Below the pieces are notes generated by a model. That model was not told the origin of the DNA. It saw only the letters and a program-made list of their open reading frames with translations, and did not search any database. The position numbers and the translations under genes were made by a program. A stretch of DNA of 47,947 bases from an uncultured bacterium (GTDB lineage Bacteria; Bacteroidota; Bacteroidia; Chitinophagales; Chitinophagaceae): assembly GCA_903951405.1 (NCBI GenBank), contig CAJBBV010000154.1, forward strand, positions 1-47,947. The letters are read 5' to 3'. Shown one piece after another: positions 44,663 to 47,072 of this stretch; position 1 is the first letter of the stretch; the number at the start of each line of letters is the position of its first letter.

Positions 44663-47072
<2,410 letters not shown>

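Follow-up and report, generated by a model that had tools for sequence, protein, structure and literature searches.

The window, which is the whole of a contig of 47,947 bases (C154), carries on its minus strand an enolase gene (eno, 47051-45780) with one TAG in frame at codon 254 (46290..46292, minus strand); the gene is otherwise undamaged and conserved, and TAG serves as a stop in the genome to which it belongs. We consider it likely that the draft consensus is wrong at this TAG or shows a minority base there, and that the organism makes full-length enolase. Under this explanation, eno would be an ordinary single-copy enolase, produced whole by the living organism, and the TAG would be either a false consensus base, the draft assembly being fragmented, or a minority allele that it picked up. 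This explanation fits best because the stop is an isolated substitution, selection on the gene is undiminished, the metabolic steps flanking enolase are intact, TAG is otherwise used normally and the gene is intact in relatives.

The interrupted enolase gene

The eno frame begins at 47051 and closes with a TAA at 45782-45780, with a single TAG inside it. The TAG parts two pieces that both match the enolase family TIGR01060: an N-terminal part of 253 codons and the TAG (46290..47051, minus strand; 398.6 bits, profile positions 1-249 of 425), and a C-terminal part of 169 codons and the TAA (45780..46289, minus strand; 264.7 bits from ATG 46241 on, profile positions 267-416). The earliest ATG, GTG or TTG past the TAG is the ATG at 46241, which is codon 271 and lies 16 codons downstream. 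This reading agrees with the original prediction, which had placed both halves in one frame, starting at 47051 and parted by a single TAG, with 46241 as codon 271. The uninterrupted frame of an enolase is not found, the TAG at codon 254 breaking it; the break is one isolated stop of the substitution type in a gene that is otherwise intact.

Downstream, an intact glycerate kinase gene (44663..45802, minus strand; TIGR00045, 363.6 bits) shares 23 bases with the end of eno, so that the overlap claimed earlier is borne out by the coordinates. Upstream lies a gene for an ABC transporter ATP-binding protein, which we take to be GldA-like (47100..47947, minus strand): it is an open frame that runs off the contig end, and its homologues adjoin eno in relatives (tblastn). 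The TAG site is 1.7 kb from this contig end. In the nearest relative found (G036, locus L021) eno and the glycerate kinase are arranged likewise, and the alignment also takes in the end of the upstream gene. An Rfam scan of the window at gathering thresholds gave no match. Identity of the glycerate kinase is 79% with the nearest relative's protein and only 50 to 56% with those at 12 other loci of the genus, whereas the adjoining enolase is highly conserved.

With the stop read as X, the encoded protein is 99% identical to the enolase of G036, a congeneric genome, and 88 to 75% identical to those of ten named relatives. The nearest named records by enolase similarity are metagenome-assembled genomes of the Chitinophagaceae and Sphingobacteriales, and 67 distinct sequences in the PDB are matched at E 0.001 or better. 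Over 423 codons the gene is like bacterial enolase (phosphopyruvate hydratase; TIGR01060, PF00113) in sequence, length and conserved residues, and differs from it by the one in-frame TAG. The nine residues S42, E164, E205, D242, E288, D315, K340, H368 and K391, which we take to be the catalytic and metal-binding residues of enolase, are all present and invariant in an alignment of 12 rows including the window; with these roles assumed, the catalytic set is complete across the two parts, as had been claimed.

The original prediction had also placed the TAG in a variable loop, and this placement holds on two counts: its column is among the more variable ones (entropy rank 32 of 288), and in the predicted fold (mean pLDDT 84.7) a turn connecting helix 245-248 to strand 255-257 contains residue 254. 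Thirty relatives were aligned, being those with loci returned out of the 51 having an enolase match; their stop column has N or K in all 15 rows from the genus, and K, G, Q or N in all 15 from the order's other families. Residue 271, where the next start codon stands, falls within helix 268-281 of the predicted fold.

Selection, copy number and the enolases of relatives

Enolase is normally essential in sugar metabolism. In the comparison with G036, dN/dS is 0.018 for codons 1-253 (61 synonymous and 5 nonsynonymous path-averaged differences) and 0.013 for codons 255-423 (33 and 2 respectively): purifying selection relative to this nearest relative is as strong after the TAG as before it. The neighbouring glycerate kinase has a dN/dS of 0.19 in the same comparison. 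If every difference is counted as neutral and assigned to the window's branch, the time for which the part after the stop could have been free of selection has a 95% upper bound of about 8% of half the divergence separating the window's genome from G036. An old pseudogene is contradicted by both this bound and the dN/dS after the TAG; the relaxed selection past the break that marks a pseudogene is absent, a very young pseudogene being one that would escape the dN/dS test. Undiminished selection implies that the stop is very young, is absent from most cells, or is bypassed with the protein still being made. The same genome keeps an intact phosphoglycerate kinase and pyruvate kinase, and with them the steps around enolase, so that enolase should be needed.

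The assembly comprises 2,455,412 bases in 204 contigs and is 90.87% complete and 1.25% contaminated. A search of it with the G036 enolase returned one match over query residues 1-423, 99% identical and with one TAG inside. A second eno elsewhere was among the consequences that had been foreseen for a real mutation; none was found in this assembly, from which about 9% of the genome is missing. Across 60 genomes, searched for the Enolase_C part of the protein, this family was found in 52, the window's own included (51 of the 59 relatives), and no internal stop was confirmed in the 51 relatives with a match. Stops were flagged in four of these, all near the C-terminal end: in G024 and G025 none is encountered as far as 12 bases short of the match end, and in G013 and G026 the protein query ends at residue 422 without a stop. 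These flagged stops are taken as normal terminators. A wider, partly overlapping sample gave an enolase match in 176 of 198 genomes of the order; among the rows listed for these, an internal stop occurs only in the window's genome. The 17 named loci, out of 80, that were aligned over their full length likewise have no stops. Two enolase matches were seen in six of the 60 genomes, none of which has both near full length, and in 10 of the 198 genomes of the order, where few of the second matches are among the rows listed.

Within the genus, eno is cut by contig ends in 7 of 36 genomes against 4.6 expected (P 0.16), by which an assembly problem specific to eno is unsupported. In five of the seven cut cases (G013, G023, G026, G028 and G029) a piece of eno lies within 5 bases of a contig end. 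In G002 one piece starts at base 1, and in G030, which is counted as cut, the two pieces overlap and a second partial copy of eno is possible. A coverage label of 4.2 on a contig of a congeneric genome (C175 of G032) indicates that thin coverage occurs in the genus. Another four of the 36 genomes (G007, G010, G016 and G022) have no enolase match by family or protein, against 3.9 expected from incompleteness, and phosphoglycerate kinase and pyruvate kinase are present in all four. By their stated completeness, the joint chance that G007, G016 and G022 (10 to 30 contigs, 87 to 95% complete) would all miss eno is 0.0006, a figure limited by this trio having been chosen after the result was seen; either incompleteness or a real loss may account for the missing match in these three.

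Use of TAG and similar breaks in the genome

TAG is an ordinary terminator in this genome. In a sample of 566,137 bases, 23% of the assembly, picked non-randomly by contig number and earlier hits, the 303 stop-terminated open reading frames of 250 aa or more end in TAA (189), TAG (66, the N-terminal part of eno itself included) or TGA (48). Release factor 1 is intact, with 369 aa and 478.1 bits to TIGR00019 (cut-off 423.25). A reassignment of the code is contradicted by these TAG counts together with the intact release factor. The window's own assembly (G000) yielded no release factor 2: its two matches to the RF-1 family (loci L055 and L056) are release factor 1 and an ArfB-like protein. Incompleteness is the probable cause. 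Among 12 other genomes of the genus, two long matches to the RF-1 family are found in nine, and a single one in G005, G007 and G012.

The tRNA search recovered 23 tRNA genes and the tmRNA, with none for Ala, Asp, Ile, Lys, Phe, Trp and Tyr. The original prediction had pointed to a tRNA with anticodon CUA as a possible suppressor, and none was found by Rfam and ARAGORN in this incomplete set, for which 150 of the 179 first-look candidates were scored. A pattern search combining a CUA anticodon loop with a T arm hit 6 sites, compared with 9 hit by the reversed control, and ARAGORN finds no tRNA at them. Run on 40 sampled stretches, ARAGORN gave nothing beyond the first tRNA search. As the recovered tRNA set is incomplete, a suppressor tRNA could be missing from it. 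In the window itself, 35489-35560 (minus strand) is called as a tRNA-Cys with a low score (44.3 bits) and an unusual anticodon, ACA; a tRNA-Cys with anticodon GCA is present on another contig (C64).

A scan of the same 23% sample for open reading frames in one frame, parted by one stop, yielded six pairs, among which the eno TAG has the top codon scores on both sides of the stop; the eno split therefore exceeds what chance would give. In four of the six pairs (two in L151 and two in L175) the members are neighbouring genes that belong to different families; a fifth, at 13685-13687 of the window, is part of a decayed TolC-like fragment. A weak pair at 468-470 of L156, seen at first, was lost after retraining on more sequence. 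Judged by codon score, in-frame coding after a TAG is found in this sample only at eno and at one junction of two genes in L175. Breaks of this kind are thus not widespread in the sampled part, an outcome that is compatible with a single wrong base but does not prove one. The fragment of a TolC-like outer membrane efflux protein (13496-14191, plus strand; PF02321, profile positions 25-187 of 187) has in-frame stops at 13493-13495 and 13685-13687, and its 5' part is unrecognised: this is a truly decayed gene. Its presence on the same contig means that at least some in-frame stops of the genome are genuine.

Explanations of the TAG

Single-base errors and minority variants in draft genome assemblies are of a known kind. 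The TAG of the window is like them in its isolation, in the lack of decay around it, in striking a single-copy gene of central metabolism and in coming from a fragmented assembly; that it belongs among them is inferred. Codon 254 would then hold a consensus error or, as the minority-allele form of the same explanation has it, most cells would lack the TAG. Several considerations weigh on the other side: to our knowledge, substitution errors in the consensus are rare for ordinary short-read assemblies; the counts in the genus do not mark eno as hard to assemble; the contig holds the decayed TolC-like gene; and a real mutation of very young age, or continued production of the protein, would explain the low dN/dS after the stop just as well. 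A literature search on premature stops in metagenome-assembled genomes found nothing. An alternative is that the sampled strain has a real nonsense mutation of very recent origin, its cells dying, living on imported metabolites or forming a short-lived subpopulation. The TAG does stand in the assembled sequence, and low dN/dS past it is expected if the mutation is very young. However, an organism that loses its only enolase should be at a strong disadvantage, phosphoglycerate kinase and pyruvate kinase are kept intact, and such a variant must dominate the sample to reach the consensus; a mutation of this kind appears unlikely.

The other explanations accept the TAG as real and retain enolase activity in spite of it. 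Continued selection past the stop would be accounted for if read-through or a suppressor tRNA supplied enough full-length enzyme, and with seven amino acids lacking a tRNA among the 23 genes recovered a suppressor could have been missed; however, the genome has an intact release factor 1 and uses TAG as a normal stop, and the searches by Rfam, ARAGORN and pattern gave no CUA tRNA. An E. coli reporter study gives a mean TAG read-through of 0.49% of wild type at 18 C, 0.80% at 25 C and 0.03% at 37 C (PMC11126739); going by these values, read-through below 1% would probably not suffice for a central enzyme, and rescue by this route is very improbable. Alternatively, translation might restart at ATG 46241, 16 codons past the TAG and in frame, with the two fragments assembling into an active enolase. 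In favour of this, the break falls in a predicted turn, between barrel strand 237-242 and hairpin 255-267. Against this, the second open reading frame lacks residues 254-270, and with them the hairpin and the start of helix 268-281 in the predicted fold; the metal ligands, as we assign them, would be divided between the fragments; and no gene of a relative was found split by a stop. A search of the literature for broken or split bacterial enolases, judged by title and the start of the abstract, gave none among the papers listed, and we regard a two-piece enolase as exceedingly improbable. Reassignment of TAG to an amino acid in this lineage, for which nothing speaks except the TAG itself, has virtually no probability: with 66 of the 303 long frames of the sample ending in it, TAG is not rare or absent as a terminator, release factor 1 is present, and by codon score coding continues after a TAG in that sample only at eno and the one L175 junction. 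Taken as a class under the standard code, a TAG fixed in the population with enolase working as two fragments or by efficient read-through at this one site is very improbable. Among the four outcomes that the original prediction had allowed, a wrong base (or a very recent variant) thus emerges as the most likely; a second eno was not found in the assembly, and suppression and fragment complementation gained no positive support.

If the TAG were real and fixed, it would show that cells can produce a central enzyme as two pieces or by translating across a stop codon. We read the case mainly as a caution that a single base of a draft can be enough for an essential gene to seem broken, and that tests of selection, together with normal stop-codon usage, help to tell such artefacts from biology.
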